Shown: piece by piece, positions 7,761 to 37,247 of the stretch
How the letters are laid out: each line of letters begins with the position of its first letter
Numbering within the stretch: the stretch's first letter is position 1
NCBI GenBank assembly: GCA_024638565.1
Contig: JAHEKC010000018.1
Location: 1-37,305, forward strand
Reading direction: 5' to 3'
DNA: 37,305 nucleotides
Origin: Bacteroidota bacterium
GTDB lineage: Bacteria > Bacteroidota > Bacteroidia > AKYH767-A > OLB10
Translations under genes and position numbers: made by a program
Notes under the pieces: generated by a model
The model's database searches: none
Seen by the model: only the letters and a program-made list of their open reading frames with translations
Told to the model about the DNA's origin: nothing

Positions 7761-10700
7761 ATGCTGAAATATAGGTGCATGGGCAGACTTTACGCCATTT
7801 TACTGCTGGCTCTTTTCACCGCATCACTGCAGGCCCAAACATACCGCAATGAGTGGATCGTCACCTCCGTGACCAACCCCCATTCGCTGCAGCAGTACCT
7901 GCGCATTGATGTCAGCCAGGATGGAATCCACCGGATCACGCAGGCTGATATTGCCCAGTACACTTCCATCACGCTCCAGGACCCGAACCGCTTTCAGCTG
8001 TTCCACCGGGGTGAGGAGCATTTCATCCATGTGGAAGGCGAGGGAGACGGCTCGTTCGATGCAGGTGACTACATCGAATTTTATGGCAGGACAAATGACG
8101 GCTCATTCGACACGCACATATACGATACCACGACCAGCCAGGTAAATCCCTATTACAGCCTGTTCAACGACACCTCGGCTTATTTCCTCACGTTCAATGC
8201 CGATGTAACCAAGCAGAACAAGCGCATGGTAGTCGAAGCTGCCAATAACTTTCCCGCCTACACACCAGCGGATTACTTCTACAGGGAAAAGATCGACTCC
8301 TACCACGGCGGGGAATATGCTACAGGGTATGCCGAGGTAAGCGTGGATGCGGAGTACAGCAGGGGTGAAGGCCATACAGGCCCGCGATTCGCCAATGCGC
8401 AGTCTCGTGTCATCGCCACTCCCAACATTCATATTGCATCAGGGATCAACGCCGAGGTCAGTACGATGTTCCTGCGGCTGAATTCACAGGGGGGGTCGTG
8501 GGATGTCCTTGTCAACGGAAACCTTGTGGGGACCACATTCGCACCCATTGGTTATTCTGTCAGCCCGGTAAGTGGCACCGTTCATACTACATCCTTCGAT
8601 CCAGCCAACCCGCAAGCGACGTTTTCCTATATGCCAGGCCAGGGCCTGACCGGCGCCCAGAGCAACTCGGTTCCCTGGGCGCGCATCGTATACCCCCACC
8701 GGTACAGCCTTAAAGGCGAGACGGACGGGAACTACAGGCTGACCATCAAGGCCAGTAGCACCGATGCGCTTACACTGATGAACGTGGATAGCTTCCAGGT
8801 GGGCAATACTTCGGCTAAATGGATCTACGTGTTGGACGGGGAAACGCCATCTGATACGGTACGGAAGGTGACGGTTTTCCCCAACGGCACCCTCTGGCAG
8901 GCACTGCCCACGACAAACTTCCAGGACCGGGTCGCGGTGCTCAGCACCGAGAGTACAATGATCACGAGTACGGGTTTCGACATCCGGCCTGTGTCAACGG
9001 ACCCGGCACGGTATGGCCGTTTCCTGAATTTCGAATTCCAGGGCCTGTATGACGCCGATTACCTGATGGTCACGCACCCGGTGTTATGGTCATCGGCGCA
9101 AGCTTACCGCGACTACCGCGCTTCTGCGGCCGGAGGGGGCTTCAATGTGCTGATGGCTGATGTCAATGAGCTGTATGACCAGTTTGCATATGGCATCCGG
9201 CAAAACCCCGTGGCCATCCGGAATTTCGCACTGCTGACGATGGACAAGTACAACGCCCATCCGAAGTATATGTTTCTTTTCGGCAAGTCGTACCGGCCGG
9301 AGAACATTCGCCGCAACCCGTCGCATTACCAGTACAACCTGGTGCCCACGTACGGCAACCCGCCCTCGGACATGATCCTGACGGCGAAGGACCAGGGCGA
9401 CTCGCTCCTGGTGCCGCAAATGGCCACCGGGCGCCTCGCTGCAAGAGATTCCAGCGATGTGTACATGTACCTCGACAAGATTATTGCCCACGACCTTCAG
9501 CACCAGCTGGCACCGCAGCCATGGATGAAGCGGGTGCTGCACTTCGGCGGCGGCAGCAATGCTTTCGAGCAGACAGAAATCAGGAATGTCCTGGCGAACT
9601 ATGAATCCGTCATCGAGGATACGCTTTATGCCGGCCATGTCACCACATTCCTCAAGACCTCCACCGCACCCATACAGATCAACCTGAGCGCCTACCTGCA
9701 GTCTCTCATCGACAGCGGCACGACCATCATGACATTTTTCGCGCATGCTTCAGGTTCCACGTTCGATATCACCACGGATGACCCCGCCAACTACAATAAC
9801 AAGGACAAATACCCGGTCATTATTGCCAATTCCTGTTTCGTGGGCGATATTCATGTGCATGCGCGGCAGTACAGTGAAGACTTCATTTTCCAGGTGGACA
9901 AGGGTGCCATTGGATTTATTGCCTCCCCGAATGTGGGTTACATCCATGACCAGGCGGCGTATACCACCCCCCTGTACAAGAACATCGCGAGCTGGAGCTA
10001 CGGCGACGGCATCGGCATATGCATGGCCAATACCGTGGACAGTGTCTGGTATGGCAGCCGCCTGGCCACACAGGCGCTTACGCTGGGTATGACGCTGCAT
10101 GGAGACCCGGCCATCAGGCTGTACGACCATGACAAACCCGACCTGGAGGTGACCAATTCCAACGTGTTCTTCACTCCTGCGAATATCTCCTCCGACATGC
10201 CATCTTTCGAGATCAATGTGATCGTGCGAAACCTGGGCCGTGCCATCAATAAACCCTACCAGCTGCGGATCGTGCGGCGCTTCCCGGACGGATTTACCCC
10301 CTGGGTGCACGAGCAGACGCTTGCCGCGATGCCGTTCATTGATACCGTCACCGTTTCAGTACCCATGAATTTCCTGCATGCCCCCGGGCTGAACTTCTTC
10401 GATGTGCAGGTTGACGCCACCATCCCCGATGAGATCGACGAAAGCAATGAATTCAACAACGAAGCCAAGAATGTACCGTTGCTGATCCGGTCCGGAGACA
10501 TTGTACCCGTCTTCCCGGCAGAATACGCCATCGTGCCGGGCGACAGCATTACCCTGAAAGCGTCGACCACTGACCTGTTCGCTGAGGCTACCGACTACCT
10601 GTTCGAAATTGATACGACGGACCGGTTCAATTTCACTTCGGGGGTGTACCAGTCGGTCACCATCAACAGCAAGGGCGGGATCGTGAGCTGGAACCTGCCG

Positions 10701-12896
10701 TTCAAGCTCGACCCCAACCAGGTGTATTACTGGCGCGTGGCGAACAAGCTCATCCAATCGGATACGACCTACAAGTGGAACGAAAGCTCCTTCATATACA
10801 TTCCCGGTAAGACGGGTTGGTCGCAGGCGCACTATTCGCAGTTCAAGGAAGACGATTTCCAGAATGTGATCTATACCAACAAGCCGGCAAGCCAGGATAC
10901 CACGTTTACATTCGTGTCGGTGGCAAAATCGCTGGTATGCAACAATTCCCTCAAGCCTAATTACATTATCGGGGACCTATGTGAATACTACCTCGATAAC
11001 CAGCTCATGGATTACGGGGGCTGTCCCAACCAGGTGAACCTGGCCGTGCTCGACAGCATCACGCTCGACCCGTGGACCAATGCCACGCACGACCTGGGGA
11101 ACTGGAACAAGTACGACAACATTTCCGGTAAGTCATACGGCTGTGCCGGACCGAATACAGGACGCAGCCGGCCTGAAGCATTCTTTGCTTTCAGAATGAC
11201 GGACCCGGCGGGGCGCGACAGCCTCCGGTACGCACTGGACAGCCTCATCCCTGCGGGCAATTATATCCTGGCGTATACATTCGCCAACCCGTATTACGGT
11301 CAGTGGGAACCCGCGCTGCGCACTGCCTTCGAGAACCTGGGCAGCCAGCTGGTGACAGCCGTGGATACGCCTGCCTGGTGGCAGCCCCTGATCTTCTTTG
11401 CGAAGAAAGGTGATCCGGCCAGCGCCCGCGAAGTACTTGGCGATTCCGTAAACACAGCCATCCAGCTGGATACGCTGCTGGGCGGAAACTGGGACAAGGG
11501 ATTCGTTACCTCGGTGACCATCGGGCCGGCTAAGCAATGGTCGGAGTTGCACTGGGAGCAGTTCCCGGTGGAACCCACGCCGCTGGCGGACAGCATCCAC
11601 CTCAAGGTGATCGGCCTGGACACCACGTTGAACGAAACAGTGCTCATTGATGGCATCCCCGTGGACTCCATGGATATGTCGCTGGCAGGCATTGACGCCA
11701 CGAATTACCCGTACCTGAAGCTAAAGGCCTATATGCAGGATGAGTTGCAAAAATCACCACCGCAGCTTCAGCGCTGGCAGATCTATTTTACTGAAGTACC
11801 CGAGGGAGCGCTGAACCCGATCAGGCATTTCAGCGTCGCAAAAGACACCGTTCAGGAAGGGGAGAACTATGATTTCGAAATGGCTTTTGAAAACATCAGC
11901 ACCACTGATTTCCCCGACAGCATGACGGTTGATTTCTTTATTTATGACGGGAACAATAACCGGGTGGATGTAGGATCACCGAAGTACAAGCCGCTCACCG
12001 CCGGGGACTACTTTATCGCATCAGCCAGTTTCGATACGCGGGGTCATCCCGGCCTGAGCTCCATGTGGATTGAAGTCAATCCATTCAATGCGCAGCACCT
12101 GCAGGAGCAGTACCATTTCAACAACATCACTTCAAGGGCGTTCAAGGTGAACAGTGACATCACCAACCCCATCCTGGACGTGACTTTTGACGGCATCCAT
12201 ATCCTGAACGGCGACATCGTTTCACCGAAGCCGGCCATCCTCATCAGGCTGAAGGACGAAAACCAGTTTGTAGCCCTTGAGGATACGGCCAAGTACCGCG
12301 TATTCCTGACCGACTCCACGGGTGGGTCGAAACAGGTCTTTTTTGAAGGCAGTCCCAACAGCGGTACGGGAACGGACAAGATGAAATGGTCGCCCGCAGC
12401 CCTTCCGGATAACACCTTTGTGATAGAATATTACCCCAACTTCCCGGTAGACGGCACCTACACCCTGGAAGTACAGGGCAGCGATGAAGCCGGAAACCTG
12501 TCAGGCGGAAACAGCTACAAGATTTCATTCGAGGTGATAAACCGTTCCACCATCACGGAGGTGATCAACTATCCGAACCCGTTCTCCACCTCCACGCGAT
12601 TCGTGTTTACGCTGACCGGCCAGGAGATCCCCACCGGTATGCGGATCCAGATCATGACGGTGACCGGAAAGATCATACGAACGATACTCCAGGACGAACT
12701 CGGGCCTATTCATATAGGCAGGAACATCACCCAGTACGCCTGGGATGGCCGTGACGAGTACGGGGACCAGCTTGCCAATGGCATTTACCTGTACCGTGTC
12801 AACACGGAGATTAACGGCCAGGGCATCGAACGCCGTGCCACTGAAGCGGACCGCTTTTTCAAAAAGGGCTGGGGTAAGATGTACCTGATGCGCTAA
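7761..12896 (+). CDS. Giant C25-family cysteine peptidase, T9SS sortase of the PorU2 type
   Basis: A 1711-residue protein. A signal peptide (GRLYAILLLALFTASLQAQ) follows either the ATG at 7761 or that at 7779. A beta-rich N-terminal region precedes a gingipain-like C25 domain at about residues 430-780. The catalytic pair is visible: His662 in FFAHASG and Cys692 in IANSCFVGD. A CARDB-like Ig domain follows at about 792-890 (PDLEVTNSNVFF...), then further beta-rich modules, and a FlgD/T9SS-type C-terminal module from about 1595 (INYPNPFSTSTRF ... WDGRDEYGDQLANGIYLYRV). Classical PorU is about 1100-1300 residues, so this is larger and fits the proteins named PorU2. It probably cleaves C-terminal sorting domains at the outer surface together with the PorV-like partner encoded just upstream. 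Cleavage activity is inferred from family. Confidence 0.85.
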   Translation: MLKYRCMGRLYAILLLALFTASLQAQTYRNEWIVTSVTNPHSLQQYLRIDVSQDGIHRITQADIAQYTSITLQDPNRFQLFHRGEEHFIHVEGEGDGSFDAGDYIEFYGRTNDGSFDTHIYDTTTSQVNPYYSLFNDTSAYFLTFNADVTKQNKRMVVEAANNFPAYTPADYFYREKIDSYHGGEYATGYAEVSVDAEYSRGEGHTGPRFANAQSRVIATPNIHIASGINAEVSTMFLRLNSQGGSWDVLVNGNLVGTTFAPIGYSVSPVSGTVHTTSFDPANPQATFSYMPGQGLTGAQSNSVPWARIVYPHRYSLKGETDGNYRLTIKASSTDALTLMNVDSFQVGNTSAKWIYVLDGETPSDTVRKVTVFPNGTLWQALPTTNFQDRVAVLSTESTMITSTGFDIRPVSTDPARYGRFLNFEFQGLYDADYLMVTHPVLWSSAQAYRDYRASAAGGGFNVLMADVNELYDQFAYGIRQNPVAIRNFALLTMDKYNAHPKYMFLFGKSYRPENIRRNPSHYQYNLVPTYGNPPSDMILTAKDQGDSLLVPQMATGRLAARDSSDVYMYLDKIIAHDLQHQLAPQPWMKRVLHFGGGSNAFEQTEIRNVLANYESVIEDTLYAGHVTTFLKTSTAPIQINLSAYLQSLIDSGTTIMTFFAHASGSTFDITTDDPANYNNKDKYPVIIANSCFVGDIHVHARQYSEDFIFQVDKGAIGFIASPNVGYIHDQAAYTTPLYKNIASWSYGDGIGICMANTVDSVWYGSRLATQALTLGMTLHGDPAIRLYDHDKPDLEVTNSNVFFTPANISSDMPSFEINVIVRNLGRAINKPYQLRIVRRFPDGFTPWVHEQTLAAMPFIDTVTVSVPMNFLHAPGLNFFDVQVDATIPDEIDESNEFNNEAKNVPLLIRSGDIVPVFPAEYAIVPGDSITLKASTTDLFAEATDYLFEIDTTDRFNFTSGVYQSVTINSKGGIVSWNLPFKLDPNQVYYWRVANKLIQSDTTYKWNESSFIYIPGKTGWSQAHYSQFKEDDFQNVIYTNKPASQDTTFTFVSVAKSLVCNNSLKPNYIIGDLCEYYLDNQLMDYGGCPNQVNLAVLDSITLDPWTNATHDLGNWNKYDNISGKSYGCAGPNTGRSRPEAFFAFRMTDPAGRDSLRYALDSLIPAGNYILAYTFANPYYGQWEPALRTAFENLGSQLVTAVDTPAWWQPLIFFAKKGDPASAREVLGDSVNTAIQLDTLLGGNWDKGFVTSVTIGPAKQWSELHWEQFPVEPTPLADSIHLKVIGLDTTLNETVLIDGIPVDSMDMSLAGIDATNYPYLKLKAYMQDELQKSPPQLQRWQIYFTEVPEGALNPIRHFSVAKDTVQEGENYDFEMAFENISTTDFPDSMTVDFFIYDGNNNRVDVGSPKYKPLTAGDYFIASASFDTRGHPGLSSMWIEVNPFNAQHLQEQYHFNNITSRAFKVNSDITNPILDVTFDGIHILNGDIVSPKPAILIRLKDENQFVALEDTAKYRVFLTDSTGGSKQVFFEGSPNSGTGTDKMKWSPAALPDNTFVIEYYPNFPVDGTYTLEVQGSDEAGNLSGGNSYKISFEVINRSTITEVINYPNPFSTSTRFVFTLTGQEIPTGMRIQIMTVTGKIIRTILQDELGPIHIGRNITQYAWDGRDEYGDQLANGIYLYRVNTEINGQGIERRATEADRFFKKGWGKMYLMR

Positions 12897-20896: not shown

Positions 20897-21484
20897 TTAT
20901 TCATGCAAAGCGCCCTGCTTCCACCTCAGCGTCTCGATCATATGTTCAATATCATCCCTCAGGAAGCGCGCCACCGGCGCGATGGAGTCACTGTTCGGAA
21001 GCGCATTGAAATAAAGGGCGCCGCGTATAAAATGCCTGGTGGAGTCAGTCACGAAAAACTGCGCGTCAGACGCAGCGTTTCCGCCAATGATATACAAGAC
21101 GCCGAATACCCCGCCAGCTGTGGCGAATCGTTTTTCATTGATCTCACTGGCTTTGATGGTATGCTTGTACACGAGCTCATATGTATCTTCTATATACTGC
21201 CCGAGGTTTCCATCCACCGGCTTGTAAGACAAATAGAGCGTGCCGTTGAACCGGGGATACTGCACATACCACCAGCAGGGCTCGGAAAGCCTGTCCGTAT
21301 CCGGCAAGACCACCGAATAGGCCGGGATCTCAAAAGTAAACGGGCAGGTGCCGGGTCGGAATTCACTGTAATTCTTGTCAGGAAATTCTATTCTGAAATA
21401 ACCCCGCGGCTTAGGCACATAGTCTGATGTGCAGGAGGCCAGGCAAACGCCGATGAATACAAAAAGGAGATATCCCAGCTTCAT
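20897..21484 (-). CDS. gldD: Gliding motility lipoprotein GldD
   Basis: A 195-residue lipoprotein. The signal ends in a lipobox (VCLASC, Cys at 18), followed by the family hallmark PKPRGYFRIEFPDK and later WWYVQYPRFNGTLYLSY. GldD is required for gliding in Flavobacterium johnsoniae and is thought to support the motility/T9SS apparatus; its biochemical role is not known. Its ATG overlaps the stop of gldE by four bases (ATGA), so the two are translationally coupled. The gldE-gldD pair next to ssb and mutY is widespread in Bacteroidota. Acylation would depend on Lnt, encoded at 13025. Confidence 0.93.
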   Translation of the reverse strand: MKLGYLLFVFIGVCLASCTSDYVPKPRGYFRIEFPDKNYSEFRPGTCPFTFEIPAYSVVLPDTDRLSEPCWWYVQYPRFNGTLYLSYKPVDGNLGQYIEDTYELVYKHTIKASEINEKRFATAGGVFGVLYIIGGNAASDAQFFVTDSTRHFIRGALYFNALPNSDSIAPVARFLRDDIEHMIETLRWKQGALHE

Positions 21485-22803
21485 TCGTTCGCCTTTTCCT
21501 TCGGTTCAGTGAGCCGCGTTACTTTTATGCGCATGATCCTGCGCCGGTCCGATGCTTCGATCGTGAATCGCAGGTTTTTTCCTTCGATGACTTCCCCTTT
21601 TCCAGGGATGGTGCCGCTTTGTTCAAGTATGTAGCCGGCCAGGTTATCGGCTTTGCCGAAAACCCTGCGGTCCACATTCATGATCCGGCATACGTCGTTA
21701 ACCGGCGTCTTGGCCTCGAACACGTAATTTTGATCGTCAAGCTTTGAATAAAACGGCTCCTCATCGTCGAATTCATCGCTGATCTCCCCCACGATCTCCT
21801 CGAGGATGTCTTCCAGGGAGACGATTCCCAGTGCCGTACCGTATTCATCAATGACGATGGCCATGTGTATTTTCTTCTCCTGGAATTCATCAAGCAGATC
21901 GTTGATCTTCTTGTTTTCCGGCACGAAATAAGGGCGCCGCACAAGGGCCTGCCAGTCGAAGTCATCATCCTTGTCAAGATGCGGAAGCAGATCTTTGATG
22001 TAAAGCATTCCGGTGACGGTATCATAGGAGCCTTCGTAAACCGGTATCCGGGAGTACCCCTGCTCCTTCACCTTTGCCAGCACTTCGGTAAATCTCATTT
22101 GGCTGTCGAAGGCCATGATATCCACCCGCGGTCTCATGACCTGCCGTACCACGATGTTCCCGAATCGCACAATGCTTTTCAAAATCTTCTTTTCGTCAGC
22201 AGGCGTACTCTGGTCTGAGGTAAGGTCTATGGCATGCGTCAGGTCATCGATAGTGGCATGGTAGCCCTTGCGCGCAATGCGTTTGTCCACGGCAGCTGTC
22301 CACCTGACCAGCAGGTAGCTGAACGGGGTCAGAATCTTGTCCGCGATATAGACAGGATAGACCACGAAGCGGGCCAGGGACATGGTTTTTTGCGTGGCAT
22401 ATATTTTGGGCATCACCTCGCCCATCAATACAATAACGAATGTCACCAGGATCACTTCAATCACGAATCCCAGCGTCGGAAATTCAGAGAAGTCGAAAGT
22501 GCCCAGTACAAAAACAGAGGCGAGAATGACAATGGCCACGTTCACCAGGTTGTTTGAAATCAAAAGGGTGGCCAGCAGCCGCTTGGGACGCTGCAGCAGC
22601 TTCAGCATCATGGCGTGTGGTCCCGTGGGTTTTTTCTGGATTTCCGCCAGCTGAACAGGGTTCAGTGAAAAGAACGCCACTTCTGAACTGGAAAACATGC
22701 CGGAAAGGAAAAGCAGGATGGCAATTACCAGGAGATCAAGGGCAGCATCGATTCCAATGTGGCGGATAAAGTCGAGCGGCAGGCAGGAAAACGTCAGTTC
22801 CAA
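21481..22803 (-). CDS. gldE: Gliding motility-associated protein GldE (CNNM/CorC-type)
   Basis: A 440-residue membrane protein. The DUF21/CNNM membrane domain covers about residues 20-180 (FLSGMFSSSEVAFFSLNPVQL, then LLISNNLVNVAIVILA). A CBS pair lies at about 205-335 (VMRPRVDIMAFD; GYSRIPVYEGSYDTVTGMLYIKDLL; IVIDEYGTALGIVSLEDILEEIVGEI). A CorC/HlyC C-terminal domain closes at about 350-430. Relatives transport or sense divalent cations. GldE is associated with gliding and can partly compensate for gldD defects in F. johnsoniae. It overlaps gldD by four bases and lies 93 bases downstream of ssb. Confidence 0.92.
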   Translation of the reverse strand: MELTFSCLPLDFIRHIGIDAALDLLVIAILLFLSGMFSSSEVAFFSLNPVQLAEIQKKPTGPHAMMLKLLQRPKRLLATLLISNNLVNVAIVILASVFVLGTFDFSEFPTLGFVIEVILVTFVIVLMGEVMPKIYATQKTMSLARFVVYPVYIADKILTPFSYLLVRWTAAVDKRIARKGYHATIDDLTHAIDLTSDQSTPADEKKILKSIVRFGNIVVRQVMRPRVDIMAFDSQMRFTEVLAKVKEQGYSRIPVYEGSYDTVTGMLYIKDLLPHLDKDDDFDWQALVRRPYFVPENKKINDLLDEFQEKKIHMAIVIDEYGTALGIVSLEDILEEIVGEISDEFDDEEPFYSKLDDQNYVFEAKTPVNDVCRIMNVDRRVFGKADNLAGYILEQSGTIPGKGEVIEGKNLRFTIEASDRRRIMRIKVTRLTEPKEKANE

Positions 22804-26076: not shown

Positions 26077-27636
26077 GTGTTGAACAGTGAATTAGTTATC
26101 AATTCAACCGCCAGCAAGGTTAACATTGCCTTACTTGAGGACCGCCGGCTGGTTGAATTAAGCAGCGAGAAGAAGGATAACAACTTTTCTGTAGGGGATA
26201 TTTACCTGGGCCGGGTTAAGAAACTCATGCCCGGGCTAAATGCCGCTTTTGTCGACATCGGCTACGAAAAGGACGCCTTTCTCCATTACCTTGATTTGGG
26301 ACCCCAGTTCCAGTCGCTGATGAGATACGTCAAGGGCACGCTTAAGGGCAAACAAACCGAAGCGCTGCTCAACAATTTCAACGGCGAAAAGGACATCGAG
26401 AAGACTGGAAAGATTTCCCAGGTGATGTCCGCGAACCAGTGGACCATTGTACAAATAGCAAAGGAACCCATCAGTACCAAGGGCCCCCGCATCACTTCCG
26501 AAATATCATTGCCCGGACGTTTCGTGGTGCTGGTTCCGTTTTCCAACGTGGTTTCCATCAGCTCAAAGATCAAGGGCGGAGAAGAGCGCAGCAGGCTCAA
26601 ACGGCTTGCCATGAGCATCAAACCCAAAAACTTCGGGTTGATCATCCGGACCGTTGCCGAAAGTAAAAAGGTTGCCGACCTGGACAAGGATATCCAGGAC
26701 CTGGTAGCCAAGTGGACCCGGTGCTGGGAAATCCTCAGGTCCGCCAAACCACCGCAGAAACTGTTGGGAGAGATGGACCGGACCAGCACCATCTTACGGG
26801 ACATGCTCAATCCCAACTTCAATGCAGTACACGTCAATGACGTGATCGTGGCCGAGGAGATCAAGTCCTATATAAAAAGCATCGCTCCGGAGCAGCATGA
26901 TATTGTAAAAGTCTACAAGGGCCGCCAACCCGTCTTCGAACGATTCGGCATCGACAAGCAAATCAAGTCGGTGTTCGGCAAAACGGTTAACATGCCCAAT
27001 GGCGCCTACCTGGTTATTGAGCATACCGAGGCCATGCACGTGATCGACGTCAACAGCGGCGGTCGGAACCGGGGCAGCGAAAACCAGGAGAACACCGCCT
27101 TGCAGGTAAACCTGGCAGCAGCACGAGAGATTGCCCGGCAACTGCGGCTGCGTGACATGGGAGGCATCATCATCGTGGATTTCATTGACCAGCGAACCCC
27201 GCAGAACAGGCGGGAATTGTTTGCGGCGCTGAAAGCGGAGATGAAGAAGGACCGCGCACGGCATACCATCCTTCCGCCGAGTAAATTCGGGCTGGTTCAG
27301 ATCACACGCGAACGCGTCCGTCCGGAACTCAAGGTGGACACACTTGAAAAGTGTCCTTCATGTGACGGTACGGGTCAGATCAAGTCCAGTATGCTGCTCC
27401 TTGACGATATCGAAAACAATATCCGGTATTTTATCAAGGAACAGAATGAGAAGAAGCTGCTGCTGAAGGTAAATCCGGTGCTACATGCATACCTGCGTCA
27501 CGGGGGGATGTTCAATTCGATCCGGTGGAAGTGGTACCGGAAATACAAACGATGGATCACGATCGAGCCTGTGACGGCGTACCACTTCATGGAATATCAT
27601 TTCTTCAACCGCAAGGGCGAGGAAATCAAGATCTGA
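26077..27636 (+). CDS. rng: Ribonuclease E/G family endoribonuclease
   Basis: A 519-residue protein of RNase G type, without the long RNase E scaffold tail. There is no ATG at the N-terminus: initiation is from GTG 26077 or the following TTG 26080, the latter giving the usual [20 protein letters not shown] start. An S1 RNA-binding domain spans about residues 35-120 ([24 protein letters not shown]). The metal-binding catalytic aspartates are Asp324 in VIDVNSGG and Asp368 in IIVDFIDQ. The zinc-link [10 protein letters not shown] is near residue 425. It processes rRNA and degrades mRNA from 5'-monophosphate ends. The GT2 gene follows after 20 bases. Confidence 0.94.
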
Positions 27637-27656
27637 GCAAAGGGGCGTTTAGGTCC

Positions 27657-28385
27657 ATGAACCCAGCTGACATCAAGATCCTTTCTGTCGTCATTCCCGC
27701 ATTTAACGAGGCGGCTACCATCCACCGCATCCTGGATAAGGTGTTGGCGGTGAAGCTTGTAAACGGCATTGAAAAGGAAGTCGTGGTCGTGAATGATTGT
27801 TCCACGGACGATACCGCGGCCGTGGTGGAAAAGTATATCGCCCATCACCCCGGGGAAAACATGCGGCTGATCAGCCAGCCCGTGAACAAGGGCAAGGGAG
27901 CGGCCCTGCACAAGGGTATCGAGATGGCCAATGGCGATTACCTCGTCATCCAGGATGCCGACCTGGAATATGATCCCAGTGAATATAACCTGCTTCTGCA
28001 GCCCGTGGTCGACGGCTTTGCGGATGTCGTGTACGGGTCCCGGTTCATGGGAGGCAATGCGCACCGGATCCTGTTCTTCTGGCATACGATCGGGAACCGT
28101 TTCCTGACGGGATTTTCGAACATGATGACAAACCTCAACCTCACAGACATGGAGACATGCTACAAGCTGTTCGACACGAAAATGGTGCAGTCGTTAAAAC
28201 TGAAGGAAAGGAGATTCGGATTCGAGCCGGAGGTCACGGCCAAGATTTCTCGTGTGCCGGGTGTGCGGATTTACGAGGTGGGGATCTCCTACTACGGACG
28301 AACATACAAGGAAGGAAAAAAGATCGGATGGAAAGACGGGTTCAGGGCGTTGTGGTGTATCATGCGATATAATATTCTGAAGTAG
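27657..28385 (+). CDS. Family 2 glycosyltransferase (DPM1-like, soluble)
   Basis: A 242-residue protein starting at ATG 27657 ([19 protein letters not shown]). The GT-A fold motifs are present: [31 protein letters not shown] and the metal-binding [11 protein letters not shown], then [10 protein letters not shown]. It resembles dolichyl/polyprenyl-phosphate sugar synthases but has no C-terminal membrane segments, so it is probably peripheral. It likely transfers a sugar from a nucleotide to a lipid carrier or other acceptor; the sugar is unknown. It follows RNase G by 20 bases and may be read from the same message, although no functional link is obvious. Confidence 0.88.
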
Positions 28386-28413: not shown

Positions 28414-29499
28414 TTATTCCAGTATTATCTTTTCCACCTGTGATTTTTGGCCCTGGCGGGCTTCGATCATATATATACCCGGACCAGTCCTGACATCGGA
28501 AATCCCGAAATGCCCTGTTGCCTCGGCAGACCGGAGCAGCCTGCCGGTAAAATCCATGATCCGGATGGAAACCATTCCGGGCACAGCAAAAATGGCGGCT
28601 ACTCCTGAACCTGCGTACGAATCGAATCTAATTTGAAATAAGGGATCCCCATTTGCCGCAAACGGGTCCCCGGCTGAAAGGCTCGTTCCCATCAGCCATG
28701 CCAGCCCGTCCCGTATCAGGTTGCTGAATAACGTATCGGAGGTAAAACTTGAAGCTGCATGGCCCAGGCTGGTGTAAAATGATTTTCCGCCACCTGCCAG
28801 TATACGGTACCATGCAACCGATCGTGCGGAATCATAGCTGTTGGTCAGGTTGTTTGGCCCAACAGTTTCTTCTACTTGCAGAATGGAGGTAATTGAAGGA
28901 TGCAGGTAACCATTTTCCCAATAATAATACTCCTCGGCCTTAAACCAGGGATCGGGTAAACTGGCAGTGACCGGGTGCGGAAGCAATTGATCGATCCTGT
29001 AAACGGGCGTACCCGATACGTGATTTGGGTTTTGCTGAACGCTTCCTCCAAGTGTTTCAGCGTAAAAGTCCCAGGTTCCGGTTAGTGTTCCGTTTGAAGT
29101 TGAATGCCGGTAGGTATCGGTAGCGGCATGAATCCCCATCATATTGCCGCCCGCATTCATGTAATTCTCGAAATTGACCCGCTGCGTGGAATCCAATATG
29201 GAGTTTCCGCTGGTATTCGAAAAAACAACTACTGAATACTGCTGAAGTGACTGCAGGCTATTGAATGCAACCCCGGTGCTGTCATGCGTCACTGCAAAGC
29301 TATGCTGGGAGCCAAGCTGCTGAAACATATTGTATGATACGGCCCTGGTCTGGTGGTCAAACCCGGTGGTCTCAGAATAATGAAGTACGTGGACCTGGGC
29401 TTTGGCTTTCTCCGGCCCGGGAAATGCAAAAAACAACACCATCCATGCACAGGAAATAAACGGGGCTATTTTTCTATTTGAATGGGATCCCCGGACCAT
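28414..29499 (-). CDS. T9SS-exported ThuA-like protein
   Basis: A 361-residue protein. A signal peptide with cleavage after AKA (near residue 34) precedes a ThuA-like class I glutamine-amidotransferase-type fold at about residues 35-245 (TGFDHQTRAV; GGNMMGIHAATDTYRH; WFKAEEYYYWE; GKSFYTSLGHAASSF). ThuA domains are linked to sugar metabolism and often accompany carbohydrate-active modules; catalysis has not been settled. Residues about 285-361 form a type A sorting domain (SIRIMDFTGRLLRS ... GIYMIEARQGQ), so it should be exported by T9SS. Its ATG directly abuts the TAG of the upstream SGNH-like gene, indicating translational coupling. Confidence 0.86.
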   Translation of the reverse strand: MVRGSHSNRKIAPFISCAWMVLFFAFPGPEKAKAQVHVLHYSETTGFDHQTRAVSYNMFQQLGSQHSFAVTHDSTGVAFNSLQSLQQYSVVVFSNTSGNSILDSTQRVNFENYMNAGGNMMGIHAATDTYRHSTSNGTLTGTWDFYAETLGGSVQQNPNHVSGTPVYRIDQLLPHPVTASLPDPWFKAEEYYYWENGYLHPSITSILQVEETVGPNNLTNSYDSARSVAWYRILAGGGKSFYTSLGHAASSFTSDTLFSNLIRDGLAWLMGTSLSAGDPFAANGDPLFQIRFDSYAGSGVAAIFAVPGMVSIRIMDFTGRLLRSAEATGHFGISDVRTGPGIYMIEARQGQKSQVEKIILE

Positions 29500-30768
29500 C
29501 TATTTTTTCTTGTTGTCCCCGGCCGCCATATATAATGCATCCATCATCACCATCGTATCGAGCGACATATTCCTTGAAGCTGCCTTTTCCCTCACATGGG
29601 AGAGCCAGTCAGCGTTTTCATATATGTATTTTTTATAATCGCTAATGCTCAAAAGCAGGCCCAGCTGGTTGCCGGGTACCGGATCGATATACATCCTGTT
29701 CCTTAATTCGGCCAGTAACACCAGTTCTTTGATGATATCAGAAACCAGTATATTGGAATAGGATGTTGGGTGCCCGTCACCTTTTATCGCGTACTTGTGC
29801 GGGTCGTATGGTCCATCTTTAACTTCCTCATTACGGATCTCCCTGTCAAGCAGGTAGGGCACATTGTTCGATTCGCAGACTTCCCTGATGAAACCTAGTC
29901 GCCATTCATCTGCAGGATGGTGTTCGGGATGAAAAATCAATACCACAAAGTCGGTGTTCAGCCTGTTTAATTCCCGGAATGCGGATTCCAGGATCGCCTT
30001 GTTGAGGCGCTTCATGTCATCAATGTACGACTGGACATCTGCCTCATCCTGCTTAAACGGCCAAACCCTGCTTGATTTCAATCGTTGCCAGAGGTACGAG
30101 GTGATCCGCGGCGGATTTTCTTCAAAATACGCTTCGGAGCTCAGGGTAATCGGTGTGCCCCGCAGGACAAGGCTGTCACGTTCCAGCTTAAAAAACGGCT
30201 TCTGTGCATCGCGTACCCCCAGCATACACCGGTCCATATCCGTCGTTAGCAGGCTGAAAATCACGAAGGGATTTTGAAATTTCGGGGCAGTTTCGCGAAA
30301 CATGAGATAGGTCTGATCCACCCCATAACCACCGACACCGAAATTTAACAGGTAATGGGACCGGGTGAAAACAGAATCACGGTTGAGATACTCATCGAAA
30401 CATATAGTGCTGTCAACACATTGCGCGAACGAGTCCCCGTATAATAACACGGGTCTTCTTCCATTCATTTTGCCGGCTTCATGATGCTGCAGCGTCTCCA
30501 TGTCCATGCTGCCAACCCACCCCAGGAGGGGATGTGGTGAGGTAATATTGAACGACCGGTTAAACAGGTAATTCAGTTTCCAGAATGTCTCATTAAAAAA
30601 TTCCTCGTGTGCTTCGCTCAGGTGCCCTGAATAATAACCTGCATAGCGGATGGACTTGAATGCATTGGAATCACTGAAAAGCACCTTTCTGAATGCATAT
30701 TCAGCCACGACAAGAGTAATGGCAGTTGAAATAGCAATTAGCATGAAGTTGCCAAACTGTTTTTTCAT
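29500..30768 (-). CDS. Membrane-anchored SGNH-hydrolase-like protein
   Basis: A 422-residue protein with an N-terminal signal anchor (FMLIAISTAITLVVAEYAF). SGNH-family blocks are visible: Gly111-Asp112-Ser113 in LLYGDSFAQC (nucleophile block), LNFGVGGYGVDQTYL and the C-terminal GDGHPTSYSN with Asp331/His333 as candidate catalytic pair. Such proteins act as esterases or O-acyl transferases on surface polysaccharides, similar in layout to AlgX/DltD-type proteins. The C-terminal 90 residues are helical and unassigned. The gene is coupled to the ThuA-like gene and lies 126 bases after the GH16-like lipoprotein gene. Substrate unknown. Confidence 0.75.
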   Translation of the reverse strand: MKKQFGNFMLIAISTAITLVVAEYAFRKVLFSDSNAFKSIRYAGYYSGHLSEAHEEFFNETFWKLNYLFNRSFNITSPHPLLGWVGSMDMETLQHHEAGKMNGRRPVLLYGDSFAQCVDSTICFDEYLNRDSVFTRSHYLLNFGVGGYGVDQTYLMFRETAPKFQNPFVIFSLLTTDMDRCMLGVRDAQKPFFKLERDSLVLRGTPITLSSEAYFEENPPRITSYLWQRLKSSRVWPFKQDEADVQSYIDDMKRLNKAILESAFRELNRLNTDFVVLIFHPEHHPADEWRLGFIREVCESNNVPYLLDREIRNEEVKDGPYDPHKYAIKGDGHPTSYSNILVSDIIKELVLLAELRNRMYIDPVPGNQLGLLLSISDYKKYIYENADWLSHVREKAASRNMSLDTMVMMDALYMAAGDNKKK

Positions 30769-30894
30769 AAATCGAAGTTACAGTATTATCGTCGTTTGCA
30801 TGTAAATAAAGGCTCTATTTAATTGTTCTCATGGTGTTCAGCGCCTAACCCGGCATCTCATGTCTTAAGGGTAAGGTCATAAAGCCAAATCATC

Positions 30895-32967
30895 TCAGTC
30901 GATGGTCAGCTCCAGAAGACGTCCTTTGATGGCCTTGTTGGCAAACGGGATATACTCCAGCAACTGGGGCGATTCGGGCCACCATGCGGACGGATGGTAC
31001 TCCTGGGTAAATACCATCAGCATTTGATTATTAGGAATGGCTGAAAGGGTGTTGTCGAGAAATGCAATTTCGGTCAGCTGGTCCTTTTCGGGTCCCATTC
31101 TCCAAATGATGGTATCAGGGCGCCAGTCGATCTGGAAGAAATAATAGTCACGCTTAAACAGCTCGTCATCCGCAACCTTGTGTTTGGTCGTAATGGCCTG
31201 GTACCAGTGATCCCATCGATGAAAAAGATATTTGCTGTCTCCATGGTATGAATACTGTGTTCCGGCGCCAAAGTCCTCGGGTGACGGACATGCCAAATCC
31301 CAGTTCGTGCATGTGACGATTATTTTATTTGAGTCGGATGTGCTTTTTGGCGGCTTTTTATGTGGCTTGTTATAGGAGGTTTCAGGCCAATCCGCGCTGG
31401 CTTTTCTTATCTCGATATCAATTTCGGAATAACTGGTGGTACTTACCCTTGGCGCTTCCTTTCCCAGCAGATGTTTCGGGATGTACCCTTTGTTTTCGCA
31501 GGCCCGGAGGCTGTTCCATTTCTTATTGGATTCATTGATCATCCATAATGCATTTGTCAGGCCGTTCCACATATTGCTTTCATTCAATAATTCCGGAAAC
31601 CTGACCTTGGCCGTGTATCGCCCGTATGTAAATCCATGCCTGGTTGCAAATCCCACATTGGTTTTATTCCAGGCGCCCTGGCGGGCAGGAGGGTTGGCCA
31701 ATTCAATAAACCCGGCTGAATCATTGACGCCCACATCGTGGCAAGGGCAATCGGAATTGGAAATGGACGCACTGACCATGTTGGCGTCGGAATAACTGGC
31801 GAGGTATTCCCGGTAACTGCCGGGTGAGAATGAGGCAGACTGGAGGTCTTCTGTTACCGGAATGTTCTTAAAAGTCATCTCGTCCTTTATGTGGTGAAAA
31901 AACTGCTGAAAAGATGCAGTTTGAAAAAGTTCTGAGCCTGCATTGCAATTTAGATCCATACAATCCCGCGAATAATCAATTTCATAGTTTTCTAATTGAT
32001 GGGAATTGATAAAAATGCCACGGGCCAGATCCACTGATGCTTTAACGGCCAATCTTGATGTGCCGGATATAATGTGTGTTCCGGGAAGATCCCCGGGTGG
32101 AGTCGCTTCAAAAAACGAATAGGGGCTGACAAACCGGCCGTTGAGCTGTTCACCTATATTTTTTACATACCCTGGAATGTGCTTTAATCCCTCTTCAGTA
32201 GTGACCACAAGCAGGAATGAATAGGTGCCGGTCCGGGGGTTACGTTTCCACCGGTTATTATAAATACGGGATTTCCTGTCTTCGTTTATTACAAAAATGG
32301 CATCAAGCTCAATTTGCCCGGCTACAGTAATATTATTGCGGGCTGCCTTTTTGGTAATGTCCTGCATCCAAAGAGAATCACTTCTGATACGGCGCATATT
32401 TGAATCCAATTCATATGCCGAAATGGGTTTTTCAGGCCTGGTGATGGAAAAAAACGTGCGTTCATTTCTTGGATTGCCGACAATCCGGAAATGATCACTT
32501 ATCTTGTAAGCATATTTGTCATTGGGTAACCTGCGGGTGCTTTTAAAGGAGATTGAAGAATCAGCCCAACTGCCATAAAAGTTTTCATGCGAGTATCCAT
32601 GAACCTTTCCGCGTTCATTCAGGTCCGGATATTTATAGGATTCATTCTGGTAATAGATCTTATAATAGAATACAGCAGAATCTTTACCGTTATTAGCAAT
32701 ATTAAAAGTGAACGAAAACGTACCGGCATCAGTTTGGTTTGCGGATGGAATGACAAACCCGCTGTCGATAGCGTTTTCGTAATCGAATGAGATAGATTTT
32801 AACTCTGTGCCGGGCTGGAAATTTGCTATGGGGTTGAACCCGGTTACTGCAAAAGAATGCCCGGCAGGCTTTTCGGATTTACAGCCAGAAACCAAAGCCA
32901 GGAAAGCAACACAGCCGGTCCAAACAAGGGATGCCATCCGCATAGTGATTAACGTATTGAAAATCAA
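30895..32967 (-). CDS. GH16-like lipoprotein with long unassigned N-terminal region
   Basis: A 690-residue lipoprotein. The lipobox is LVSGC (Cys29); alternative starts at Met9 or Met11 also give a good signal. Residues about 40-430 are beta-rich and not recognised. The C-terminal 250 residues look like a family 16 glycoside hydrolase jelly-roll: FTYGRYTAKVRFPEL, the catalytic motif SEIDIEIRK with Glu515-Ile-Asp517-Ile-Glu519, and YYFFQIDWRPDTIIWRMG. GH16 enzymes cleave beta-1,3 or beta-1,4 glucans and galactans. The usual final strand is diverged, so activity is not certain. It probably faces the surface or periplasm and may handle a polysaccharide with the two genes downstream. Confidence 0.75.
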   Translation of the reverse strand: MIFNTLITMRMASLVWTGCVAFLALVSGCKSEKPAGHSFAVTGFNPIANFQPGTELKSISFDYENAIDSGFVIPSANQTDAGTFSFTFNIANNGKDSAVFYYKIYYQNESYKYPDLNERGKVHGYSHENFYGSWADSSISFKSTRRLPNDKYAYKISDHFRIVGNPRNERTFFSITRPEKPISAYELDSNMRRIRSDSLWMQDITKKAARNNITVAGQIELDAIFVINEDRKSRIYNNRWKRNPRTGTYSFLLVVTTEEGLKHIPGYVKNIGEQLNGRFVSPYSFFEATPPGDLPGTHIISGTSRLAVKASVDLARGIFINSHQLENYEIDYSRDCMDLNCNAGSELFQTASFQQFFHHIKDEMTFKNIPVTEDLQSASFSPGSYREYLASYSDANMVSASISNSDCPCHDVGVNDSAGFIELANPPARQGAWNKTNVGFATRHGFTYGRYTAKVRFPELLNESNMWNGLTNALWMINESNKKWNSLRACENKGYIPKHLLGKEAPRVSTTSYSEIDIEIRKASADWPETSYNKPHKKPPKSTSDSNKIIVTCTNWDLACPSPEDFGAGTQYSYHGDSKYLFHRWDHWYQAITTKHKVADDELFKRDYYFFQIDWRPDTIIWRMGPEKDQLTEIAFLDNTLSAIPNNQMLMVFTQEYHPSAWWPESPQLLEYIPFANKAIKGRLLELTID

Positions 32968-33100: not shown

Positions 33101-34522
33101 GTGAAGATTAAAGAGAAACAAGCAGAGAGGCTTATGCTGGGGATGCTGGCAGTGATATTGCTGGCATTGTCATGGATTGCTGACGGCACCGGCGATGAGG
33201 GGGACAGCATCAGTCATTTCCTGATTGCCAGGCATGCATGGAGCCATCCGGAGCTATTGCTGTACCACTGGGGCAAACCGGTATTTACCTTGCTGGCATC
33301 GCCCTTTGCGCAATTGGGCTTTTGGGGCATCAAGCTGTTTAATATTGGCTGCAGTGTCGTTTCTGCTGCCCTGGCCATACAAGTGGCCCGGGCGTTGTCA
33401 ATTAAACGGGCGTACCTGTTACCGCTCTTATTGGTGACGGTCCCGTTTTTCCTGTTTTATTCGCTGTCCGGGCTAACCGAGCCGCTGTTCAATGCGGCGT
33501 TGATGGCCGGTATTTACCTTTTCATAAGATCGAAAAGGGTTGCAGCATCGTTGATCATTTCCTTCCTTCCTTTCGTGAGATCTGAAGGACTGGTCATATT
33601 AACTTTGGTGCTTATCTATATTGTTGTCATCAGGTGCTGGAAGCACATCCCGCTTCTATTTGCAGGCCATGTGATATATGCAGCAGCCGGTAGTTTCGCC
33701 GGGAAAAAGCCCCATTGGGTATTTTCAGAAATGTCTTACGCTGAGTTAAGAAGCGGATATGGAAGCGGAACCTGGTCCTGGTTTTTTGAGCGGATGCCCG
33801 AAATATATGGCGTTGCGCTCACTATATTATTGACCCTGGGATTGATATGGTCGATTAAAAAGCTCATGATGGACAGGCGCGGGAATCCCATGAACAGGGA
33901 GCTGCTGTTCCTGGTTTACGGGTCGGCTACTTCTGTATTTCTATTTCATGTGATCGCCTGGGCGATGGGCTGGTTTCACTCAATGGGCATGCTCAGGGTC
34001 ATGGTTGGCATCATGGGACCCAGCGCCATTGTCGGGCTGGTCGGGGCCAATAGCATAATGTCTGTGGGAAGCAAGCGCGCGAGAAAATACATTCTCATAA
34101 CGATAATCCTGGGCATTGTCATCAGCCCATTTGCAAGCAGGAATTACGGCTTTGATTATAAAAGGCAATTCTGCCTGAACCCTTCGCAGGTAGTGGCTGA
34201 ACAGGCGGCGGAATACATCGAAAATGAATTTGGCGATTACAGTGGAAGGGTGTTTGCTTTTGAAGCCCCCTATATATCAGTTGCCCTGGGTGTAGATATG
34301 TACGACTGGTATTTATGGAAGTCACTAAAAACCGAGTATTATGATGCAATGCCTGCCGAAACAATTATTGTTTGGGATGATTGGTACGCTCCTGTAGAGT
34401 GTGGCGCCACAAGGGAATACCTCGATAGCAAGGAAGAGGTAATATTTCTACAGGAGTTTTCCATTCCAAATCCATATGGCAAGCCGGAACAGCGTGTATG
34501 TGCCGTATACCTAAAGAAGTGA
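33101..34522 (+). CDS. Polytopic membrane protein, GT-C-type glycosyltransferase-like
   Basis: A 473-residue protein starting at GTG 33101 (no ATG available before codon 12). About nine to ten membrane helices fill residues 10-345. The first loop carries DGTGDEGDSISHFL with acidic residues where GT-C enzymes (PMT/ArnT/GT87-like) hold the catalytic Asp. The last 120 residues are a soluble domain (SQVVAEQAAEYIENEFGDYSGRVFAFEAPYI ... VWDDWYAP). GT-C proteins use polyprenyl-phosphate sugars made by GtrB/DPM-type enzymes, one of which is encoded nearby at 34646, so a pairing is attractive but unproven. It is divergent from the GH16-like gene. Confidence 0.65.
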   Translation: MKIKEKQAERLMLGMLAVILLALSWIADGTGDEGDSISHFLIARHAWSHPELLLYHWGKPVFTLLASPFAQLGFWGIKLFNIGCSVVSAALAIQVARALSIKRAYLLPLLLVTVPFFLFYSLSGLTEPLFNAALMAGIYLFIRSKRVAASLIISFLPFVRSEGLVILTLVLIYIVVIRCWKHIPLLFAGHVIYAAAGSFAGKKPHWVFSEMSYAELRSGYGSGTWSWFFERMPEIYGVALTILLTLGLIWSIKKLMMDRRGNPMNRELLFLVYGSATSVFLFHVIAWAMGWFHSMGMLRVMVGIMGPSAIVGLVGANSIMSVGSKRARKYILITIILGIVISPFASRNYGFDYKRQFCLNPSQVVAEQAAEYIENEFGDYSGRVFAFEAPYISVALGVDMYDWYLWKSLKTEYYDAMPAETIIVWDDWYAPVECGATREYLDSKEEVIFLQEFSIPNPYGKPEQRVCAVYLKK

Positions 34523-34645: not shown

Positions 34646-35572
34646 CTATAGATTCAGGTCTCTTACCACGTACAATGGCCGGCTACGGACATTGGCACTC
34701 ATGCGGCTGATGTACTCCCCAATGATGCCGATGCAGATCAGCTGGACGCCCCCTAAAAAAAGCACGACCAGCATCAGCGATGCCCATCCGGGAACCGCGT
34801 TGTGCGAAATGAATTTTACGTACAAAACGTAAAGACTGGCAAAAAACGCTGCCATCGAAACGATAAAGCCGAGCGCCGTGGCAAACTTTAACGGTGCTGT
34901 AGAAAAAGAGGTAATGCCGTCAAGTGCCAGGCGGTACATTTTGCGCAGCGTATAACCCGTCCTGCCGGCATGCCTGCCGTCACGGTCGTATTCCACAAAA
35001 GTCTGCCTGTAACCTGCCCAGGCGATCTGTCCCCGCAGGTACTTTTCCTGCTCGGGCATTTTTCGCAATACTTCCACGATCCGCCTGTCCATGATGCGGA
35101 AATCACCGGTGTCAACCGGAATCTCGATGGAAGTGATCTTCGCCAGTAAACGATAAAAGTACCTGGCTGTCCATCGCTTCAGCACACCCTCGCCCCTGCG
35201 TTGCCGCCGGCGGGCGTAAACGACCTGGTAACCCTCCTGCATCCTGGCATACATTTCACCTATGAGCTCCGGCGGATCCTGGAGATCGGCATCAATGATC
35301 ACAACGGCCTCGCCGGAACAATGGTCCAGCCCGGCAGTGACGGCAATCTGGTGGCCGAAATTCCGGGAAAAGTCGATGTACCGGACCGAGGAATCACGGC
35401 CGGACAATTTTCTGATCAGCTCCATGGAACGGTCATGGCTCCCGTCATTGACGAAAATCAACTCATGGGAGACATCCAGCCCGGAAACGACGTGCTTGAG
35501 CCGCTCGTAAAGCTTTTCAATGCTGTCTTCCTCATTATAAATGGGAATGATGACAGAAAGGGCGATGCTCAT
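34646..35572 (-). CDS. Polyprenyl-phosphate glycosyltransferase, GtrB/ArnC-like
   Basis: A 308-residue protein. The GT-A domain covers residues 1-225 (LSVIIPIYNEEDSIEKL; LIFVNDGSHDRSMELI; SRNFGHQIAVTAGLDH; VVIIDADLQDPPELI), followed by the family-typical VDTGDFRIMDRRIVEVL and KYLRGQIAWAGYRQ. Two C-terminal membrane helices lie at about 232-255 and 268-290 (LMLVVLFLGGVQLICIGIIGEYI). It transfers glucose, mannose or a similar sugar from a nucleotide to undecaprenyl phosphate at the inner membrane, supplying GT-C enzymes. It starts 31 bases after the SBBP-repeat gene and is convergent with the GT-C-like gene. Confidence 0.92.
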   Translation of the reverse strand: MSIALSVIIPIYNEEDSIEKLYERLKHVVSGLDVSHELIFVNDGSHDRSMELIRKLSGRDSSVRYIDFSRNFGHQIAVTAGLDHCSGEAVVIIDADLQDPPELIGEMYARMQEGYQVVYARRRQRRGEGVLKRWTARYFYRLLAKITSIEIPVDTGDFRIMDRRIVEVLRKMPEQEKYLRGQIAWAGYRQTFVEYDRDGRHAGRTGYTLRKMYRLALDGITSFSTAPLKFATALGFIVSMAAFFASLYVLYVKFISHNAVPGWASLMLVVLFLGGVQLICIGIIGEYISRMSANVRSRPLYVVRDLNL

Positions 35573-35603: not shown

Positions 35604-37247
35604 TCAGTGGGTCACGATGAATCCCTTATGCAGGGTGGCGGCGTTGCCGATCAGTGAAAGGGTGTAACGGCCGGCCGGCAGCCCGCTGAGCGGGATGGCG
35701 ACGGCATGGCCGGACAGATCCGCCTGCTGCCTTTTTACCAGGCGTCCGGTCACGTCGGTAACGGTGATCTCGGCAGGGCCCCTCAGCCATTCACCGGGTG
35801 ATAGGTATACAACGTCACTGGACGGGTTGGGAAACAGGTTGAAATCGACTGCACTTACTTCGGGTAGGCCTACGGTACCTGTGCTGATGCGGGTTACGAA
35901 CTGGAACCAGGTGGATGGTGCCGGAACGGGCAGGTTGTTATTCCCGATGGTCACATTCCCCGTGTACTCTCCCGTCAGGTATATGACGCCCCCGCCTTCA
36001 TCGGCCGATATGGACTTTCCCTGGTCGTAATTATTGCCGCCGATGTTAATCCCGAACATCTCCGTACCGGCATTGTTATACCTCATCACGAAAGCGTCAT
36101 TCACGCCGTTCGATGGGATGAACTTGGTGCCGAATGAACCCGGACCGTTCAGGTATCCCGTCACGTAGGTATTGCCGTCGTTCTTGCGAACTGACATATC
36201 ATAAATCCAGTCCCCGGAGTTGCTTCCTCCGCCCTTCGCCCACTGCCAGGCACCAGATGCGTTCAGCTTGGCTACAAATACATTTCCGAACCCGTTGTCA
36301 AGTACGGTATAGGACCCGAAGGTGGCCGTATCTCCTATGCTCCCGCATATGTAAACATTTCCGCTGTTATCATATCCGATGGCCGCTGCTACATCATTGC
36401 TCTTGCCGCCGCCACTGGTTGCCCAGATATTGCTTCCGCTGTCATCGTACTTGGCGATGAATACATCAGAAAATGCGACGCTGCTGACCACGCTGCTGCC
36501 GAAAGATGCGGTATTGCCGAATTCACCTGTAACAACCAGGTCACCCGCACCATCCTTGACCACATCGGCACCGGCATCCTCGCCGGGCCCTCCGGCATCC
36601 GTGACCCATACCAGGTCACCCTTCAGGTCGTATTTGGCCAGGAAGATCTCCGTGTCATTGGTGCCGCTGGAATTCAGCGTGGTGGTTTCAAATGAAGCGT
36701 TGCCGGTATAGAATCCGGTCATGTAAAGGTGGGTCCCGTCGCACATCATCCCGTTTACCTCGTCAAACAGGCTGCCACCGGCCCGTTTCAGCCACACCGG
36801 GTTACCCGCGAAATCGAGCTTTACAATAAAGATGTCACTCTGGCCCACGGAATTCACGGTGAACGATCCGAACTTGATGGCACCTGTAAAATAACCGGCC
36901 GCGTAAACGTTCCCGGAGAAATCCAGGGCTATGGCCGAGGCATACCCATACGAAAACAAGTCCCCGCCCGTGGCGGTCCAGAGCTGATTCCCGCCCGTAT
37001 CGAGGACGGTAATGTATACATCATTATATCCCACGGCCGTCTTGGTGGTCGTGGCCCCGAAGTTTCGGGTGCTGGTGAAGTCTCCGGTGATATACAGGGC
37101 CCCGAAGTTGCTGTATGCCATGTCGACATTGCCGGTGAATTGCGCGCGCCCGCCAAATCCAGATGCCCAGTGATAGTTAAATGGCTGAGCAACAGATGCT
37201 TGATTAAAAAGCAATACACCCAGCAGTGCTGTGATTAGTCTAGTCAT
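35604..37247 (-). CDS. T9SS-exported seven-repeat SBBP/beta-propeller protein
   Basis: A 547-residue protein. The signal peptide is MTRLITALLGVLLFNQASVAQ. Seven tandem repeats of about 60 residues fill residues 25-455; each has W-x-x-x-x-GG, a stretch with GN-x-Y-x-x-G-x-x-x-G-x-x-x-FG and a (D/F)-x-F-(I/V)-x-(K/R)-x-(D/N) strand. This is the SBBP (seven-bladed propeller-like) pattern. Residues about 470-547 form a type A sorting domain (FNLFPNPSSDVVYLSPGEW ... LPAGRYTLSLIG). It should be exported by T9SS and displayed or released; no enzymatic residues stand out. A plausible -7 box at 37256-37274 is weak. Confidence 0.88.
   Translation of the reverse strand: MTRLITALLGVLLFNQASVAQPFNYHWASGFGGRAQFTGNVDMAYSNFGALYITGDFTSTRNFGATTTKTAVGYNDVYITVLDTGGNQLWTATGGDLFSYGYASAIALDFSGNVYAAGYFTGAIKFGSFTVNSVGQSDIFIVKLDFAGNPVWLKRAGGSLFDEVNGMMCDGTHLYMTGFYTGNASFETTTLNSSGTNDTEIFLAKYDLKGDLVWVTDAGGPGEDAGADVVKDGAGDLVVTGEFGNTASFGSSVVSSVAFSDVFIAKYDDSGSNIWATSGGGKSNDVAAAIGYDNSGNVYICGSIGDTATFGSYTVLDNGFGNVFVAKLNASGAWQWAKGGGSNSGDWIYDMSVRKNDGNTYVTGYLNGPGSFGTKFIPSNGVNDAFVMRYNNAGTEMFGINIGGNNYDQGKSISADEGGGVIYLTGEYTGNVTIGNNNLPVPAPSTWFQFVTRISTGTVGLPEVSAVDFNLFPNPSSDVVYLSPGEWLRGPAEITVTDVTGRLVKRQQADLSGHAVAIPLSGLPAGRYTLSLIGNAATLHKGFIVTH

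Follow-up and report, generated by a model that had tools for sequence, protein, structure and literature searches.

A helical module shared by adjacent GH16-like and SGNH-like genes in a Bacteroidota bacterium

Introduction

In several proteobacterial polysaccharide loci, synthesis is accompanied by a hydrolase or lyase as well as by acylation enzymes (PMC8829089): in the alginate system, for example, the periplasmic lyase AlgL clears periplasmic polymer during synthesis (same source), and pairs of MBOAT and SGNH proteins acylate envelope polymers (PMC12148441). Here, we consider a locus in a 37,305-nucleotide stretch of DNA (contig JAHEKC010000018.1, assembly GCA_024638565.1; hereafter the window) from a Bacteroidota bacterium, in which a GH16-like lipoprotein, an SGNH/GDSL-like protein and a ThuA-domain protein are encoded by consecutive genes. 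To our knowledge, the way such enzymes are gathered, and comparable systems of uncultured Bacteroidota, have been little studied.

As in the alginate system, where AlgL is encoded near the acylating AlgI, AlgJ and AlgX (MBOAT plus SGNH-like proteins), a putative polymer-cutting enzyme is encoded near polymer-acylating proteins; in contrast, a GH16-like lipoprotein takes the place of the lyase, the window SGNH-like protein is not of the AlgX type and has no MBOAT gene beside it, and we know of no helical module in the alginate system such as the one reported below. The lipoprotein shares the jelly-roll fold and the Glu-x-Asp-x-Glu motif of the GH16 (clan GH-B) beta-glucanases and carrageenases, but differs from them by a Pfam score under the cut-off, low identity in structural alignments, an extra N-terminal region and the module, as well as by its surroundings (acylation-type neighbours in relatives, no SusC/SusD in the window). 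The third protein matches the full ThuA domain; it carries a sorting domain of the type IX secretion system (T9SS) and is encoded beside a GH16-like gene, only here and in the close relative L027 among the 28 genomes searched. A polysaccharide-locus hydrolase accompanied by acyl-modifying proteins is a kind of locus already known, and the part worth pursuing is the module shared by two of these proteins.

A module shared by two adjacent genes

Cross-matches between the SGNH-like and GH16-like proteins were traced to a stretch of about 42 residues (Table 1), which is absent from the original prediction made for this locus, and in which W, K-A and D are invariant in 11 seeds. A profile built from six GH16-like inserts alone recovers the tail of the window SGNH-like protein (E-value 1.1e-7) and an AlgX-like protein of locus L050 (7.9e-15), and a profile built from five SGNH tails alone recovers the window GH16-like insert (8.5e-12), so that the homology does not depend on a mixed profile. 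What is new here is this module, common to GH16-like and SGNH-like proteins: Pfam returned nothing convincing (E 0.11 for one family and 0.17 for another, in one of the 11 members each), PDB sequences gave no match (best E 0.093), and the literature search found no title or abstract opening devoted to it, a nameless module being hard to search for.

With E-values up to 0.01, the module matches twice in the 3.0-Mb genome to which the window belongs, once in each of the two neighbouring genes. The module is found in 16 of the 41 genomes searched around this one (itself counted), in 23 of the 28 genomes with a GH16-like gene, and in a single genome, the own one, of a phylum-wide sample of 392. 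Across the 28 genomes, 22 genes outside the GH16-like proteins carry it (merged by hand from 38 places, after removal of 12 in GH16-like proteins and four second copies within one open reading frame, ORF). Ten of these are no more than 15 kb away from a GH16-like gene (0.22 expected; counted by hand from positions), or six of 18 when the four seed genes are set aside (0.18 expected), and eight of the 22 have an MBOAT gene no further than 3.5 kb away (0.13 expected), all expectations assuming random placement, so that significance is overstated, given that pathway genes cluster and relatives are not independent.

Which proteins carry the module besides the GH16-like family? Among 18 of the 22 genes that were checked, eight are strongly AlgX-like, eight are predicted to have at least four membrane segments over the stretch covered, two are SGNH-like (those of the window and of locus L018, from another family of the order), and none is GH16-like; outside that check, one gene in L039 is AlgX-like by clustering and another is an 89-aa frame. 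A Pfam scan of 10 carriers, including two with weak matches that do not belong to the 22 (L045 6225-7982, domain E 5e-4; L063, E 0.0018), gave five AlgX-like proteins (PF16822), one GDSL protein and four without match, each of the latter with several predicted membrane segments. It is conceivable, though in our view somewhat unlikely, that the module is a docking tag, not described before, in a complex by which Bacteroidota assemble envelope polysaccharide, borne by unrelated proteins (GH16-like hydrolase, SGNH-like proteins, AlgX-like acetyltransferases, multi-pass membrane proteins) and placing polymerisation, acylation and cutting at one site. With a small module common to otherwise unrelated envelope proteins, such systems could also be located where genomes lack annotation, and it could be tested directly whether cutting is physically coupled to acylation.

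Table 1. Main features of the window, with positions counted from its first nucleotide
Feature	Position	Strand	Basis or remark
GH16-like lipoprotein ORF	30895..32967	-	ORF call
Module copy 1, GH16-like residues ~189-232	32272..32403	-	profile match; model helices between 184 and 233
SGNH/GDSL-like protein ORF	29500..30768	-	ORF call
Module copy 2, SGNH-like residues ~377-420 (C-terminus)	29509..29640	-	profile match
ThuA-domain protein, C-terminal T9SS sorting domain of type A	28414..29499	-	PF06283, TIGR04183
Family 2 glycosyltransferase, far side of the ThuA gene	27525..28385	+	close homologues in six GH16-like loci
Multi-pass membrane protein, 9 predicted segments	33101..34522	+	homologues near other GH16-like genes
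Family 2 glycosyltransferase, two C-terminal membrane segments	34646..35572	-	PgfS/ArnC-like, under the cut-offs of those models
T9SS-tailed protein with weak SBBP-like repeats	35604..37247	-	
PorV2-type protein	6645..7754	+	NCBIfam, above cut-off
PorU2-type protein	7761..12896	+	NCBIfam, above cut-off
gldD and gldE, adjacent	20897..22803	-	

The GH16-like lipoprotein

The lipoprotein consists of a signal peptide with lipobox Cys29, an N-terminal region (about residues 36-304) broken up by the module, and a C-terminal GH16-type jelly roll (about 305-690 in the model); its listed start codon is TTG, and on our reading of the alignment an in-frame ATG eight codons on fits the signal peptide better. 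It is named GH16-like and not GH16 because it scores 16.1 bits against PF00722, below the cut-off of 22, and no PDB match was obtained by sequence, with either the sequence alone (E up to 1) or a profile of the family (E up to 0.01). By predicted structure, the C-terminal part is clearly a GH16-type (clan GH-B) jelly roll: in a model built on an alignment of 22 sequences (predicted local distance difference test, pLDDT, 86.8; predicted template modelling score 0.81), it aligns best with 5nbo_A, a Bacteroides ovatus GH16 enzyme (Z-score 18.0, root-mean-square deviation 3.1, 225 residues aligned), with 10-16% identity in the structural alignments listed. Lichenases, laminarinases and carrageenases come next at similar Z-scores, and for this reason the fold says nothing about the substrate. 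The EIDIE motif (E515-x-D517-x-E519) is on strand 515-521 of the model, and its three acidic residues, as well as Cys29, are present in all 27 aligned rows, so that both the catalytic motif read by the original prediction and the jelly-roll geometry expected from it were recovered. These rows omit three incomplete sequences (L020, L021 and L026) and two duplicates (L019 of L027, L025 of L038), while L032, which has a masked stretch, was excluded from the structure alignments.

The N-terminal residues that had earlier been left unassigned received no fold from structure prediction either. Modelled alone (pLDDT 81.4), this region reached a top Z-score of 7.8, and its Foldseek matches, mainly hexamerins and hemocyanins, had low TM-scores, which led us to drop any fold assignment; likenesses at Z 6.7-7.7 to Ig-like domains of GH2 enzymes, RbmA and a Wzt carbohydrate-binding domain may reflect only a common arrangement.

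On which side of the outer membrane might the protein lie? A K-(D/E)2 motif after the lipobox is an export signal in Capnocytophaga (PMC5080379), and none of the 27 rows has it at the optimal position. Export signals vary between groups, and the lipoprotein likely faces the periplasm, as judged from its sequence.

The family was found in 10 of the 42 genomes of the order searched (the own genome counted). Named Bacteroidota records gave 21 loci, almost all of them titled as metagenome-assembled, and at least two of these loci duplicate genomes already in the order search. In the phylum-wide sample, a first look in which at most three candidates were scored per listed genome found it in the own genome, with one weak partial match elsewhere (E 6.2e-4). 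The family and the module may thus be rare, or limited to certain lineages, or overlooked in this first look. No title or abstract opening returned by the literature search concerned such a GH16-like lipoprotein.

The SGNH-like protein

The gene of the SGNH-like protein follows that of the lipoprotein after 126 bp. Its product has one predicted N-terminal membrane segment and carries GDS (111-113), GGYGVDQ (146-152) and DGHPT (331-335), the Ser block thus preceding the His block and not in the permuted H-S-G-N order. The family match is weak (Lipase_GDSL_2, E 0.13), with no family above cut-off. Blocks were assigned by eye: Gly-Asp-Ser 111-113 (Block I) and a Gly of Block II (G146/G147) are common to the window protein and to that of L018. 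The roles of the SGNH blocks, including the Block III Asn, are set out in PMC9487903, together with Asp-x-His as in AlgX, and the Block II residue of PatB is Ser or Asn (PMC12148441). The Gly that the window protein has at this place would favour esterase activity, should the protein have any. The anchored SGNH-type protein of the original prediction accordingly stands as regards its GDS block and membrane segment, and less so as regards its family match and the other blocks.

PF16822 (AlgX/AlgJ) does not match the window SGNH-like protein at E up to 1, while it does match proteins of L033, L034, L047 and L050. Homology to the AlgX-like proteins by alignment was also considered and rejected as unreliable (15-21% identity), the sequence link being the module.

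Neighbourhoods of GH16-like genes

The locus was compared with 28 GH16-like loci outside the window, several of them ended by contig ends, with genes called as longest ORFs by a custom script. The three genes had been proposed to form a unit, and a conserved operon of this kind was rejected, as none of the 28 loci carries all three and whole-genome searches agree. The recurring element is instead the GH16-like gene with varying partners: a full-length SGNH-like gene adjoins it only in L018, and a ThuA gene only in L027. MBOAT acyltransferase genes occur in seven of 27 neighbourhoods, where 0.31 would be expected given how many each genome has (L021 being omitted from this expectation), and an eighth, partial, MBOAT gene lies at the end of L039. 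AlgX-like SGNH proteins and glycosyltransferases likewise recur near the GH16-like genes of relatives. The MBOAT enrichment points to a cell that acylates its own polysaccharide, not to one that uses foreign glycans, and together with the AlgX-like neighbours it lends partial support to the earlier guess that the cell's own surface polysaccharide is the target.

An exported protein of 530-793 aa, whose profile weakly matches the xylanase C 4xup (E 8e-4), also recurs, directly upstream of insert-less GH16-like genes (L018, L022-L024, L031, L033-L038, L040-L043 and L046), and a short relative of it (168-205 aa; CBM_4_9 match below cut-off) is nearby in 12 loci. In 28 rows (L020 being brought back for this comparison), 11 GH16-like proteins bear the insert and have no exported partner beside them, and 17 lack the insert and have one, with a weak assignment in L038 (E 1.6e-12) and an upstream gene out of view at the contig end in L029. 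This exclusivity was discarded as evidence, since the tree needs only one change and gives one independent pair, which amounts to a single historical split. Multi-pass membrane neighbours lie within four genes of 21 of 30 GH16-like genes, a count that includes the window and MBOAT proteins and that, for want of a background rate, was not used as evidence.

A candidate polysaccharide-tailoring pair

A surface polysaccharide of the cell's own making could be tailored by the GH16-like lipoprotein and its SGNH-like neighbour, acting as a pair that faces the periplasm and is possibly gathered through the module, a reading to which we give an even chance. It is based on the GH16 fold, the invariant E515, D517, E519 and Cys29 and the lack of an optimally placed export signal, on the two module copies in adjacent genes and the enrichment of module genes near GH16-like and MBOAT genes, and on the MBOAT enrichment near GH16-like genes and the second SGNH-like/GH16-like adjacency in L018. 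By analogy with known systems, the lipoprotein would sit on the periplasmic side of the outer membrane and clear the polymer or control its length, by cutting or transglycosylation. From its anchor in the inner membrane, the SGNH-like protein would take acyl groups off the polymer or transfer them. The module would probably recruit both to one place or partner, a role that it may also have in relatives, on AlgX-like proteins and on multi-pass membrane proteins.

Several observations weigh against this pair, besides the overstated significance mentioned above. The module is not required, as 17 of 27 GH16-like proteins and five of the 28 genomes do without it. Activity of the SGNH-like protein is doubtful, because its sequence departs from the canonical blocks: no Asn is seen by eye at the likely place of Block III in the window protein or in that of L018, and the Asp-x-His of Block V is Asn-x-His in L018. 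No MBOAT gene is present in the window, the only one of this genome being on another contig. Surface exposure is possible in L040, where K-E-D occurs two positions past the optimal export-signal place, and in L045, which like one L041 copy has an acidic pair after the lipobox.

Could the locus rather serve to degrade foreign glycans? A lichenase- or carrageenase-like lipoprotein would then break down an environmental polysaccharide together with an esterase and the ThuA protein on the surface, in keeping with the nearest folds (beta-glucanases and carrageenases) and with the T9SS sorting domain on the ThuA protein. We consider this unlikely, as relatives have MBOAT, AlgX-like and glycosyltransferase neighbours, no row has an optimally placed export signal, and the window lacks a SusC/SusD pair, as the original prediction had said: its only two listed ORFs above 900 aa encode a PorU2-type protein and SecA, neither of them SusC, and SusD has no match among the scanned window proteins, a scan limited to this contig and leaving aside some small ORFs.

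The three genes might also be envelope genes without joint function, lying in a variable spot between conserved glycosyltransferase genes, with the module as a general helical appendage. The trio is indeed not conserved, most GH16-like proteins lack the module, and in L027, too, the glycosyltransferase and ribonuclease G genes stand beside the GH16-like gene and the ThuA gene, so that the ThuA linkage may be one of shared position only. Such a loose neighbourhood nevertheless appears improbable when a 3.0-Mb genome has its two module copies in adjacent genes, when an SGNH-like gene is again beside a GH16-like gene in another family, and when non-seed module genes are enriched near GH16-like genes. 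The ExDxE motif is also found in xyloglucan transglycosylases. That the GH16-like domain crosslinks or anchors the polymer by transglycosylation, or binds it, instead of cutting it seems very unlikely to us, the GH16 beta-1,3-glucosyltransferase 5jvv among the structural matches being in its favour, and the invariance of both catalytic Glu in 27 of 27 rows speaking against pure binding but not against transglycosylation itself.

The ThuA protein and the rest of the window

Even where the GH16-like and SGNH-like proteins act as a polysaccharide-tailoring pair, the T9SS-exported ThuA protein would be a loosely linked extra. It matches PF06283 over the full domain (130.8 bits, cut-off 33.4) and the solved relative 4jqs (E 1.3e-10), and its T9SS sorting domain scores 27.1 bits against TIGR04183 (cut-off 23) and 18 bits, below the cut-off of 27, against Por_Secre_tail PF18962, which bears out the surface-exported ThuA-like protein first proposed. 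ThuA is above cut-off in three of the 28 GH16-like genomes, and in two of them (the own one and that of L027) beside the GH16-like gene. A literature search on ThuA yielded no helpful paper. As had also been noted, the three genes are consecutive on the minus strand and the last two abut, the SGNH-like stop codon (29502-29500) leaving no base before the ThuA ATG (29499), and these two genes are probably co-transcribed. Promoter-like and terminator-like signals were uninformative (five against 8.4 expected, and seven against 5.3).

The glycosyltransferase beyond the ThuA gene has its homologues in the six GH16-like loci at E <1e-100, and the multi-pass protein on the other side of the locus is presumably GT-C-like, from its appearance. 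The second glycosyltransferase gene adjoins that of the T9SS-tailed protein with SBBP-like repeats, a pair that recurs near the GH16-like gene of L027.

At the start of the window, positions 1-1500 have a G+C content of 0.357 (0.44-0.56 in the remaining 1.5-kb steps), and carry a methyltransferase-like gene and a gene without Pfam match at E 1e-10. The PorV2-type and PorU2-type genes stand side by side as a putative second type IX sorting pair, and the gliding-motility genes gldD and gldE are followed further on by ssb and a MutY-like gene (HhH-GPD plus NUDIX_4).

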